In this document: piece by piece, positions 11,646-54,303 of the stretch
How positions within the stretch are numbered: position 1 is the first letter of the stretch
Layout: each line of letters starts with the position of its first letter
NCBI RefSeq assembly: GCF_001874525.1
Contig: NZ_LKAQ01000004.1
Coordinates: 248,001-312,000 of the forward strand
Length of the DNA stretch: 64,000 nucleotides
From: Pseudodesulfovibrio hydrargyri
Lineage (GTDB): Bacteria > Desulfobacterota > Desulfovibrionia > Desulfovibrionales > Desulfovibrionaceae
Reading direction: 5' to 3'
Position numbers and translations under genes: made by a program
The notes under the pieces: model-generated
Database searches by the model: none
Seen by the model: only the letters and a program-made list of their open reading frames with translations
What the model was told of the DNA's origin: nothing

Positions 11646-12659
11646 ATGAAAATCCTCATCATCGATGATTCCAAGGCCACCGCCACCCAGCTGACCGAGA
11701 TGCTGCTGAGCGCCGGCCACACCGACGTGTCGAACGTGGATTCCCTGGAACGGGCCATGCGGACCCTGCAGCGCTCCGTGGCCGGGGACGCGCCCGTGGA
11801 CCTGGTGCTCATCGATCTCGACAACCACGACACCGACGGCATCGCCGCCATCCTGACCCTCAAGTCCCACCGCGAGTTCGAGGACATCCCGATCATCGCC
11901 GTGGCCCCGAACGACGGGTCCGACGACCTGGACCGCGCCTTTGCGGCCGGGGCCTCCGACTACATCGTCAAGCCCGTGGGCCGCACCGAACTGCGCGCCC
12001 GCGTCCGGTCCGCCCTGCAGTTGCGCCGCGAGATGCTCAAGCGCATGTTGCGCGAGCGCGAACTGGAACGGCTGGCCCGCAAGCTGGAACGGATGTCCAA
12101 CCAGGACGGGCTGACCGGCCTGGCCAACCGCCGCTGCTTCGACGACACGCTCATCCGCGAATGGGTGCGCAACGGCCGCGAGGACAACTCCCTGGGACTG
12201 CTGATGATCGACATCGACCACTTCAAGGCCTACAACGACGCCCTGGGCCATGTGGACGGCGACGTCTGCCTGCGCGGGGTGGCCGACGCCATCCGCGACG
12301 CCACCAACCGGCCCGGCGACCTGGTGGCCCGCTACGGCGGCGAGGAGTTCGCCATCATCCTGCCCGGCACCGACTTCGACGGCGCGCGCGTGGTGGCCGA
12401 GAACATCCACGCCAACCTGGCCAAATCCTGCATCAGCCACCCCGACTCCCGGGTGGCCTGCAACGTGACCGTGTCCATCGGCGTGGCCGCCACCGTACCC
12501 ACCTGCGAGACCACCCCGGAACACCTCATCCAGGCCGCGGACCGCGCCCTCTACCAAGCCAAACAGTCCGGCCGGAACCGCACCGAAGCCATCTGCCTCC
12601 CCGATCCGGACCGGGTGCGGCAGCAGGAATCGGGGGAAGGGGAGAGGGGAACCCTTTGA
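11646..12659 (+). CDS. Response regulator diguanylate cyclase
   Basis: A 337-residue soluble protein: receiver domain (1-122) with acidic pocket D7-D8, likely phosphoacceptor D57 in LVLIDLDN and K109 in YIVKP; a short coiled coil (124-152); then a GGDEF domain with the active-site variant GGEEF at 231-235, which normally keeps activity. An inhibitory-site RPGD (222-225) precedes it, so product feedback by c-di-GMP is expected. No sensor kinase is adjacent. The last 12 or so codons and the stop codon lie inside a dispersed hairpin element (copy 2), which has therefore supplied the C-terminus. The start has no strong ribosome binding site but fits the canonical MKILIIDDS receiver N-terminus. 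Confidence 0.93.
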
Positions 12660-12738
12660 GGAAAGGGTTCCCCTCTCCCCTTCCCCCGAACCCCCATCCC
12701 CTCTCCCTTCCTAAACTTCTTGCCGCCGCTTCGCGGAG
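12630..12738 (+). repeat. Dispersed hairpin element, copy 2 (overlaps gene end)
   Basis: A perfect 27-base inverted repeat (12630-12656 with 12663-12689) built on CGGGGGAAGGGGAGAGGGG, followed by the pyrimidine tract CCCCCATCCCCTCTCCCTTCC, TAAACTTCTT and GCCGCTTCGCGG. The left arm is translated as the tail of the diguanylate cyclase, whose TGA is at 12657-12659 in the loop. Confidence 0.85.
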
Positions 12739-12906
12739 GTTCGTCTAGACCCTATGATTGGTGCCCGCGCCCCAATAAAACCGCTTACATCATGGAGCGA
12801 CTCGGGTGCGCAGCACACGACAGCGGCTCTTGCTCCCTCCTCCTACCTGGAGCACCTCGGTTGGCCTCACCAACCGACAGCGGCTCTTCGTGCACGCACA
12901 ATGTGA

Positions 12907-13028
12907 GGCTTTCGAGAGTGGGTCAGCTGTGCATTTTCTCCAGGCGGGCTTTCGCCGCAGCGTAGTGGCCCTACGTGAGGACGAAAGCCCGCCTGGAAAA
13001 ATGTGCAGATGGCCCGCTATCGAAAGCC
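12907..13028. repeat. 122-bp inverted repeat, copy A
   Basis: An almost perfect inverted repeat centred at 12967.5. The outer arms are GGCTTTCGA and TCGAAAGCC, the inner arms TCCAGGCGGGCTTTCG and CGAAAGCCCGCCTGGA. The centre is CGTAG-loop-CTACG flanked by GCCGCAG on the left and TGAGGA on the right. The same architecture occurs at 53405-53525 and, more diverged, at 48430-48552. The rest of the 12739-13148 gap holds no supported gene. Confidence 0.8.
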
Positions 13029-13148
13029 GCGCGCCACCCACAAAAGAGGGGCCATGCGCTCCGGGGAGGAAAGCGCATGGCCACAGGGATGTGGGCGGCC
13101 GGTTGCAAGGATCAACCGACCGCGAGGAACTATGAGGCTTGTCGAAAA

Positions 13149-48357: not shown

Positions 48358-48429
48358 CGGCTTGCAAACGGACCGCTTTTTCAGTAGGTATGCACACCTT
48401 GCGCAAGCAGCCACTGGCAGCGAGCCTGG

Positions 48430-48552
48430 TCAGGTGATCGAGGATTTCTCCTGGCAAGGCGCAAGAATGATTCAGGACCGCCGCGTATCTTAATACGCAA
48501 GGGTCTGAATCTTTCGCGGCAACGCGGCCAGGGGGAATCCTCGATCACCTGA
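48430..48552. repeat. 123-bp inverted repeat, copy C, abutting tRNA-Pro
   Basis: Perfect 17-base outer arms TCAGGTGATCGAGGATT (48430-48446) and AATCCTCGATCACCTGA (48536-48552), then CCTGG/CCAGG, a GATTCAG/CTGAATC stem and a central hairpin GCGTAT-CTTA-ATACGC. The right arm ends at the base before tRNA-Pro. It shares size, symmetry and core with the copies at 12907 and 53405. Confidence 0.8.
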
Positions 48553-48629
48553 CGGAGTGTGGCGCAGACTGGTAGCGCGCCTGCTTTGGGAGCAGGATGC
48601 CGGGGGTTCAAATCCCTCCACTCCGACCA
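48553..48629 (+). tRNA. tRNA-Pro (anticodon UGG)
   Basis: A 77-base cloverleaf: acceptor arm CGGAGTG/CACTCCG, D arm GCGC-AGACTGGTA-GCGC, anticodon stem CCTGC/GCAGG with loop TTTGGGA (anticodon TGG at 48587-48589), T arm with GGTTCAAATCC, discriminator A and an encoded CCA. The start CGG with a C1-G72 pair fits bacterial tRNA-Pro. Confidence 0.97.
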
Positions 48630-53404: not shown

Positions 53405-53525
53405 GGCTTTCGAGAGTGGTGTGGCAGTGCATTTTTCGAGGGCGTGGCTGACCGCAGCGTAGTCCCCCTACGTGAGGATCAGCCGCGCCCTCGGAAAATG
53501 TGCTGACACGCCGCTATCGGAAGCC
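53405..53525. repeat. 121-bp inverted repeat, copy B
   Basis: Centred at 53465: outer arms GGCTTTCGA and TCGGAAGCC, inner arms TCGAGGGCGTGGCTGA and TCAGCCGCGCCCTCGG, centre CGTAG-loop-CTACG with CCGCAG to the left and TGAGGA to the right. It ends 10 bases after the hemolysin III stop codon. Inner arms differ from copy A but still pair. Confidence 0.8.
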
Positions 53526-53535
53526 GCCGCGCCAA

Positions 53536-54177
53536 CTACACGTAGCAGTACATGACCACGTAGTGACAGGCGCTGCCGCCGATGACGAAGAGGTGGAATA
53601 TCTCGTGGAAGCCGAAACGCCTGGGGAGCGGGTCGGGCCACTTCACGGCGTAGATGACCGCGCCCAGGGAATAGGCCAGCCCCCCGGCCACGAGCCAGGC
53701 CAGTGAGGCGGCGGACATGGCCTGGACCAGCGGGTAGATGCCCACCAGGACGAGCCAGCCCATGGCCAGGTAGATGCCCGTGGACAGCCAGCGCGGGGCC
53801 GTGATCCAGAAGACCTTCATGACGATGCCGCCGATGGCGATTCCCCAGACCACCCCGAACAGGGACCAGCCCCAGGGGCCGCGCAGAGGGATGAGGCAGA
53901 TGGGCGTGTAGGTGGCCGCGATATAGAAGAAGATCATGGAATGGTCCACCCGGCGCAGGAGGCTGACGCCCCGCTCGCTCACGGGCAGCCAGTGATACAG
54001 GGTGGAGGCGGTGTAGAGCAGGATCATGCCCCCGCCGAAGACGGAGAAGGCGACGATGTGCCACGGCAGGGCCGGGCTGGCCGCGCGGACGATGAGCAGG
54101 ACCGTGCCGAGCACGGCCAGGGCCGCCGCGATGCAATGGGTCAATCCGCTGACCGGGTCACGAAGCGATAGGATCAT
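53536..54177 (-). CDS. Hemolysin III/PAQR-family membrane protein
   Basis: A 213-residue seven-TM protein of the HlyIII/YqfA family. Conserved residues: YTASTLYHWLP (Ser and His of the zinc-type site), RRVDHSMIFFYIAATYTPIC and the late EIFHLFVIGGSACHYV. These residues resemble those used by PAQR hydrolases. The start at 54177 has GGGAG upstream; a longer frame to 54231 has none. True hemolytic action is not implied. Confidence 0.92.
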   Translation of the reverse strand: MILSLRDPVSGLTHCIAAALAVLGTVLLIVRAASPALPWHIVAFSVFGGGMILLYTASTLYHWLPVSERGVSLLRRVDHSMIFFYIAATYTPICLIPLRGPWGWSLFGVVWGIAIGGIVMKVFWITAPRWLSTGIYLAMGWLVLVGIYPLVQAMSAASLAWLVAGGLAYSLGAVIYAVKWPDPLPRRFGFHEIFHLFVIGGSACHYVVMYCYV

Positions 54178-54303
54178 GAGAGCTCCCTGGCATTGATGCC
54201 GACTCAACTGTCGCACAGTTGCCGGAAGCAAACAAGCGTTTGACGGCGGACTTTCCGTGACGGCCGGGCGGGCGAAGGGACACCGGGCATGGGTCGCGCC
54301 GGA

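Follow-up and report, generated by a model that had tools for sequence, protein, structure and literature searches.

REPs are described, in the available portions of PMC3733652 and PMC12306157, as sequences of 20–40 bp that carry a tag, GTAG or CGTC, at one end; the GTAG REPs are linked to RAYT, and a significant share of the E. coli REPs lies 1–20 nt behind the end of an ORF. ERIC (IRU, RU-1) is given in the accessible text of PMC2229807 as a 127-bp intergenic repeat that forms a long stem-loop, carries target duplications and a terminal TA, and has an effect on mRNA that depends on its orientation. Similarly, Correia/NEMIS, RUP and other MITE-like repeats are intergenic, about 100–200 bp long, and have terminal inverted repeats together with target duplications or TA ends (PMC2229807, same portion). 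Further, a 24-copy predicted short-RNA family with a central GRCGTAGCGCTGCTACGCC has been reported in Geobacter metallireducens, with 5' regions of genes named as its location in the part of PMC2700814 that was available.

The window analysed here is a stretch of 64,000 nucleotides from Pseudodesulfovibrio hydrargyri, in which a sequence-only reading had reported two inverted repeats of nearly 120 bp. Both are present where reported (copies A and B, Table 1). They belong to a palindromic repeat family that is new, is of the same kind as REP and ERIC and is conserved in structure; its placement at gene 3' ends is strongly preferred and its stems are exchangeable. A literature search did not find a family of such kind described in Desulfovibrio or Pseudodesulfovibrio; the repeat literature compared, as far as its text was available, comprised PMC3733652, PMC12306157, PMC1590033, PMC2700814, PMC2996986, PMC3543383 and PMC2229807.

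Like REPs and BIMEs, the elements are extragenic palindromes downstream of genes, in a mosaic with other hairpins. Unlike REPs, they are 117–124 nt long (91 copies) instead of 20–40 bp, with the ends GGCTT..AAGCC, and they have no GTAG or CGTC end tag, GTAG occurring only in the apical stem. REP/RAYT was ruled out because Y1 transposases do not follow copy number: a search for PF01797 found none in the high-copy genomes G002 and G006 and a 78-aa fragment in the P. hydrargyri genome. The elements resemble ERIC in being intergenic, in forming a long stem-loop and in length, and differ from it in the absence of target duplications and of a terminal TA; the ERIC sequence is presumably also different. 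With MITEs they share terminal inverted repeats, namely the 31-nt outer arms (95.7% standard pairs over 29 counted pairs). Unlike Correia/NEMIS, RUP and MITE-like repeats, they show neither target duplication (direct flank match 0.85, shuffled 0.84) nor TA ends (left 32/140, right 0/140), and a MITE with target duplication was ruled out on the absence of the duplication. Integron attC sites were considered and dropped because the attC end motifs appear to be missing. Scans with Rfam 15 matched no known RNA family: only a tRNA exceeded the gathering score in the window, and the copy A region gave one chance-level match (E 1.1). In G006 copies such as L155, 17 of the 19 letters (CGTAGCGCTGCTACGCC) of the Geobacter central sequence are found in the apical core, and the Geobacter family is likewise intergenic and multicopy; this comparison was made with the legend description of that family and is a lead.

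Members and distribution of the family

Copy A, used as query against the P. hydrargyri genome, has 42 matches there; a few of these are one palindrome found on both strands. The copies are dispersed over the chromosome. From this genome, four congeners and loci retrieved by BLAST and pattern searches, 140 full copies were collected, mostly from Pseudodesulfovibrio (40 in P. hydrargyri, 39 in G002, 29 in G006 and 32 in others), beside 20 further partial copies, several of them doubtful. By BLAST, the element occurs in 10 of 31 genomes, P. hydrargyri included, all of one genus. The covariance model that the sequence-only reading had suggested was built from 49 copies, copy A among them, and scores copy A at 129 bits and copy B at 122 bits in the window, each on the opposite strand too. 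It matches Pseudodesulfovibrio widely and other genera weakly. Among 36 genomes of the genus, for which match counts include both strands, 31 have matches at E ≤ 0.001, and in 21 the E of the top match is under 1e-15. Stricter filters were used for 297 sampled genomes of the order; 35 of these match, 26 of them in the genus and nine in six other genera, where the best E is 1.5e-11.

A degenerate right-arm pattern recovered 21 stretches from a collection of named genomes that may omit near records; these carry the names Pseudodesulfovibrio or Desulfovibrionaceae, plus one Rhodobacteraceae MAG. Copy A had no match in plasmids, the sister-type element discussed below had none in plasmids or phages, and neither the right-arm pattern nor one sister-core pattern matched viral contigs; one sister-arm pattern had a single viral-contig match. 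Inspection by eye of the G002 coordinates, taking the origin to be near base 1, showed no clear replication-strand bias.

Table 1. Features of the window, with positions counted from its first nucleotide
Feature	Position	Strand	Evidence
Left mosaic hairpin GGGAAGGGGAG..CTCCCCTTCCC	12634..12685	+	
Left mosaic hairpin CCGCTTCGCGG	12725..12736	+	
Left mosaic hairpin TGGAGCGA..CAGCGGCTC, first copy	12793..12829	+	
Left mosaic hairpin TGGAGCA..CAGCGGCTC, second copy	12848..12886	+	
Copy A, full palindromic element, 122 nt	12907..13028	+	arm search, covariance model, RNA fold
Copy A, left outer arm	12907..12937	+	
Copy A, left inner arm (variable, exchangeable stem)	12938..12954	+	
Copy A, conserved apical core: CCGCAG-CGTAG, loop, CTACG-TGAGGA	12955..12981	+	
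Copy A, right inner arm	12982..12997	+	
Copy A, right outer arm (end facing gene 3' ends)	12998..13028	+	
Minus-strand terminator-like hairpin, then minus-strand T-run; copy A lies behind	13050..13082	-	by eye
Probable distant relative with other outer arms, directly before tRNA-Pro, in its sense strand	48429..48553	+	covariance model 29.4 bits, E 2.9e-5
Copy B, full palindromic element, 121 nt; outer arms 53405–53435 and 53495–53525	53405..53525	+	
Haemolysin-III-related gene; stop codon 10 nt from copy B	53536..54231	-	

A hairpin conserved in structure

Every full copy forms a hairpin of about 120 nt whose structure is conserved. An inverted-repeat search reported two nested 31-nt arm pairs in copy A, each 81% complementary, and no arm pair in copy B, the RNA fold of which nevertheless spans the full length. 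Copy A folds at −90.6 kcal/mol (shuffle mean −41.8, z −14.0) and copy B at −92.9 kcal/mol (shuffle mean −42.8, z −14.1), and none of 200 dinucleotide shuffles of either copy folded as well, which bears out the earlier view that they are too structured for chance. The description of both as almost perfect inverted repeats is subject to one proviso: the outer arms contain two G.A mismatches and several G.T pairs, and these occupy sites where other family members have them too.

The conservation of the folded form, also proposed from copies A and B, is seen family-wide. In the outer arms of 49 diverse copies, 95.7% of the cells are standard pairs, and pairing falls to 36–50% when the arms are slid by one to three columns. 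Site-by-site covariation is seen here: 12 of the 29 counted pairs have changed on both sides (shuffled mean 6.1), a number reached in none of 500 shuffles. The 97 distinct inner stems pair at 12.0 of 14 positions, against 7.2 when the arms are shuffled (maximum of 500 shuffles, 8.06), and 72 of them pair at 12 or more; this test covers the 119 of 138 distinct sequences with a parsable core, and the 19 left out include the inverted ones. Across the 119 sequences the core CC(G/A)NAG ... (U/C)GAGGA is nearly invariant, and the held stem varies in compensated form. The internal loop CCGCAG/TGAGGA, rightly singled out from the two copies, is identical in A and B and unpaired apart from CC/GG. It is oriented one way in 135 of 140 copies, inverted in three and ambiguous in two.

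The strands are not equivalent. In the outer arms of the 138 distinct sequences, G.T cells number 634 against 39 A.C cells, with a few fixed positions contributing much; among cells that depart from the Watson-Crick consensus the counts are 98 and 38, and in the inner stems 83 and 54. The plus strand gives the better fold in all 140 copies by RNA and by DNA parameters, with means of −81 against −63 kcal/mol as RNA and −45 against −33 kcal/mol as DNA. The single-stranded structure of the plus strand thus seems to matter, although the independent events are few.

The inner arms of A and B differ, and each pairs with its own partner, as had been noted; the difference, however, reflects inner stems exchanged whole between copies. 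P. hydrargyri and G002 have 16 loci in common, with outer arms 94% identical (88–89% between paralogues); the divergence at four-fold sites of the adjoining genes is about 14%, estimated in part from crude ungapped alignments. At six of these 16 loci the stems are swapped: both inner arms are under 70% identical and both versions fold well. Shared loci are thus kept between the two species while inner stems swap between copies. In addition, L011 is a mispaired chimera in which the left half of one stem type is joined at the core to the right half of another; it folds poorly, and its orthologue is regular. The swapped stems and the chimera indicate that inner stems are exchanged whole. Because A and B differ by stem type, their comparison is no evidence of site-by-site compensation, which the outer arms do show. 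More generally, apparent covariation between two copies of a repeat can come from whole-stem exchange. A recent duplication that gave rise to both A and B, which the sequence-only reading had raised as a caveat, is ruled out by their different stem types, their different neighbours and the presence of A's locus in G002. Its other caveat, that the repeats are the ends of one known transposon, was checked in part, and no known transposon was identified.

Location behind genes, with possible explanations

Most copies lie directly behind the stop codon or the intrinsic terminator of the right-hand gene. Where a right neighbour was called (88 copies), it is oriented toward the element in 81; of 91 copies, 58 are flanked by convergent genes and three have no gene on either side, although individual gene calls, made with a home-made codon-usage score, may be wrong. 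The right end is 1–38 nt behind a stop codon in 71 of 139 copies, none of the 71 having a terminator in between, and 4–29 nt behind a terminator T-run in 45; the remaining 23 have neither. The left end, used as a control, gave one stop and 17 terminator placements among 138. Copy A is not among the 23: it follows a terminator-like hairpin, and 518 nt separate it from the next gene called on the minus strand, which encodes a peptidase S24 domain. In 90 of 137 copies (26 in shuffled flanks), the first 300 nt past the palindrome hold a terminator of the same gene, and a terminator lies to the left of the element in 70 of 137 (15 shuffled); the shuffled flanks are single mononucleotide shuffles, and the terminator finder is home-made and misses some that are visible by eye, e.g. 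at L178, L250 and L251. The element itself is not a bidirectional terminator, since the T-run before and the A-run after the inner stem are in the wrong order on either strand. According to the part of PMC4824070 that was available, a terminator placed several base pairs after a gene undergoes almost complete repression, a point of relevance for hairpins this near a stop codon. The sequence-only reading was sound on family, fold and loop, and it missed this placement, the left mosaic and the hairpins of other genera.

At two loci the element occupies the position where many element-free relatives have a terminator. The GAPDH gene was matched in all 36 genus genomes and 30 loci were examined. 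Four carry the element 2–3 nt after the stop codon with no terminator in between, and 23 of the 26 element-free loci have a terminator; among the other three, L171 resembles a decayed element and L178 has a hairpin that the finder missed. The ABC-permease result (matched in 32 of 36 genomes, 30 loci examined) is weaker. No terminator precedes the element in the seven loci that carry it, and 12 of 23 element-free loci have one; of the 11 that score none, L234 resembles a decayed element and L250 and L251 resemble misses of the finder. For glnA (matched in 33 of 36 genomes, 3' end located in all 30 loci examined), the element is present in 12 loci, each time behind a retained terminator, and 16 of the 18 element-free loci have a terminator. 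Taken together, the three genes indicate that the element can replace a terminator or sit just behind one. This is a testable case of a repeat becoming part of gene architecture: because, within one genus, some orthologues have an intrinsic terminator at their end and others the hairpin, the effect on 3' ends and mRNA lifetime is directly measurable.

Separately, the post-stop terminators at the glnA 3' ends L199, L201, L218 and L227 and at L246, which has no copy of the element, are by eye near-perfect palindromes of about 70 nt; their outer arms differ between genomes and match within each.

We tentatively favour the view that a dispersed extragenic palindrome of the REP/ERIC type, which arose as a mobile element, has come to act as a hairpin at mRNA 3' ends. 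An enzyme would once have spread the copies, and recombination between copies would exchange the inner stems. The mRNA of the adjoining gene would run past the stop codon and fold into the hairpin, which would block 3'-to-5' decay, and transcription would end further on, at terminators in the same intergenic region. The one-sided placement (71 + 45 of 139 right ends, 1 + 17 of 138 left ends), the missing terminator at all 71 stop-adjacent copies with one beyond the palindrome in 90 of 137, and its absence from the element-bearing GAPDH (4/4) and ABC-permease (7/7) loci support this reading. The minus-strand RNA still folds (mean −63 kcal/mol), loci are kept though stems are swapped, and the patchy occurrence (10/31 by BLAST, 21/36 by model) is consistent with a mobile origin. 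Against it, the plus strand, which is antisense to the adjoining gene, gives the better fold in 140/140 copies; with G.T pairs recurring in it as well, the structure seems to be shaped for that strand and not for the mRNA. Further, the element would be absent from the mRNA of the gene in the 45/139 copies beyond a terminator, 23/139 copies have neither neighbour, and 11/23 element-free ABC-permease loci score no terminator, some perhaps missed.

The strand asymmetry (140/140, by both parameter sets) is what a selfish, non-autonomous element would lead one to expect, if its plus strand folded as single-stranded DNA to be seen by a transposase or recombinase, with gene 3' ends as safe or preferred targets and no gain to the host. 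This possible explanation ranks close behind the 3'-end hairpin. Copy number is patchy among congeners, orientation beside gene ends is fixed, and a sister-type element is found on a viral contig. It is opposed by the lack of target duplication, by the lack of a Y1 transposase, the one enzyme searched for, in the high-copy G002 and G006, and by the retention of loci across two species with outer arms 94% identical against about 14% four-fold divergence. The near-invariant core, the conserved and unequal outer arms and the dispersal over the chromosome could also fit a double-stranded DNA site, bound by protein or extruded as a cruciform, that organises the chromosome at gene ends. We consider this improbable, as pairing kept through two-sided changes is needless for a plain binding site, and G.T cells exceed A.C cells. 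The chance is a little smaller still that the plus strand acts as RNA in transcripts toward the neighbour gene, as an antisense roadblock or a small RNA: the plus strand folds best and the probable relative before tRNA-Pro lies in the sense strand, but left terminators (70/137, shuffled 15) would stop such transcripts and the hairpin has no U-tract behind it. Equally small is the likelihood that replication slippage between the inverted arms corrects them, so that the palindromes would be mutational by-products with no selection on the fold. Stem types are exchanged whole, the core of L137 is nearly symmetric, and several terminators in these genomes are by eye also long near-perfect palindromes; however, the same mismatches, G.T pairs and internal loop recur family-wide, and correction would tend to erase them.

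Flanking modules and related hairpins

To the left of most P. hydrargyri copies, modules follow in a fixed order: GGGGAAGGGG..CCCCTTCCCC, CCGCTTCGCGG, often a terminator, and the TGGAGCGA..CAGCGGCTC hairpin. The latter has 27 occurrences in this genome by exact pattern and is absent at copy B. The copies inspected from G006, G001 and G018 are mostly without these modules, so the palindrome is the common unit. The GGGGAAGGGG/CCCCTTCCCC hairpin, seen at 12634–12685 and in many left flanks, is reminiscent of a multicopy sequence of Geobacter metallireducens, the CCYTC repeat of 'class 4', which is said in the available part of PMC2700814 to be similar to sequences in many genomes.

In the partial copies L132, L134, L139, L145, L149, L153, L085 and L088, the left arm is replaced by a repeat, GGCGAGTCTTCGAGCCGTACAAGATCT.., and a similar repeat lies inside or instead of the hairpin tips in L021 and L148, as if targeting hairpins. 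The right outer arm also occurs with no other part of the element, at L049 1490–1535 and L057 295–330; in L049 (G016) this lone arm is directly behind a stop codon.

The palindrome at 48429–48553, 125 nt long with arms AAGGCGC..GCAACGCGG and core CCGCCGCGTA..TACGCAAGGG, is probably a sister-type element. From the best 30 model matches in four genomes of other genera together with G004 and G042, 27 were inspected. All are hairpins of 113–122 nt, mostly with different outer arms and with a related core such as CCGAAGCGTA..TACGCGAGG; the G042 copies combine outer arms of this family with a middle part of the sister type. Five of the 27 right ends, and no left end, are found at most 4 nt past the stop codon of an open frame of 100 codons or more; the 3'-end placement therefore holds only partly among these relatives. 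In G131, three model matches (L285, L290, L296) are identical, and the sequence ahead of them is presumably the 3' end of 23S rRNA.

The finding points to an undescribed structured-repeat superfamily in sulfate-reducing bacteria. It is a bolder and rather doubtful proposition that structured elements of about 120 nt form a wide superfamily in Desulfovibrionaceae, and perhaps beyond, with the present family as one branch; a single dedicated 3'-end-making factor would bind its invariant apical loop (CC..G ... GAGG), such that a set of genes in these bacteria would have exchanged intrinsic terminators for a movable, factor-dependent 3'-end hairpin. The sister-type element on a viral contig lies at 400–700 of the short contig L313 and ends shortly before a sequence like a ribosome-binding site and a start codon.
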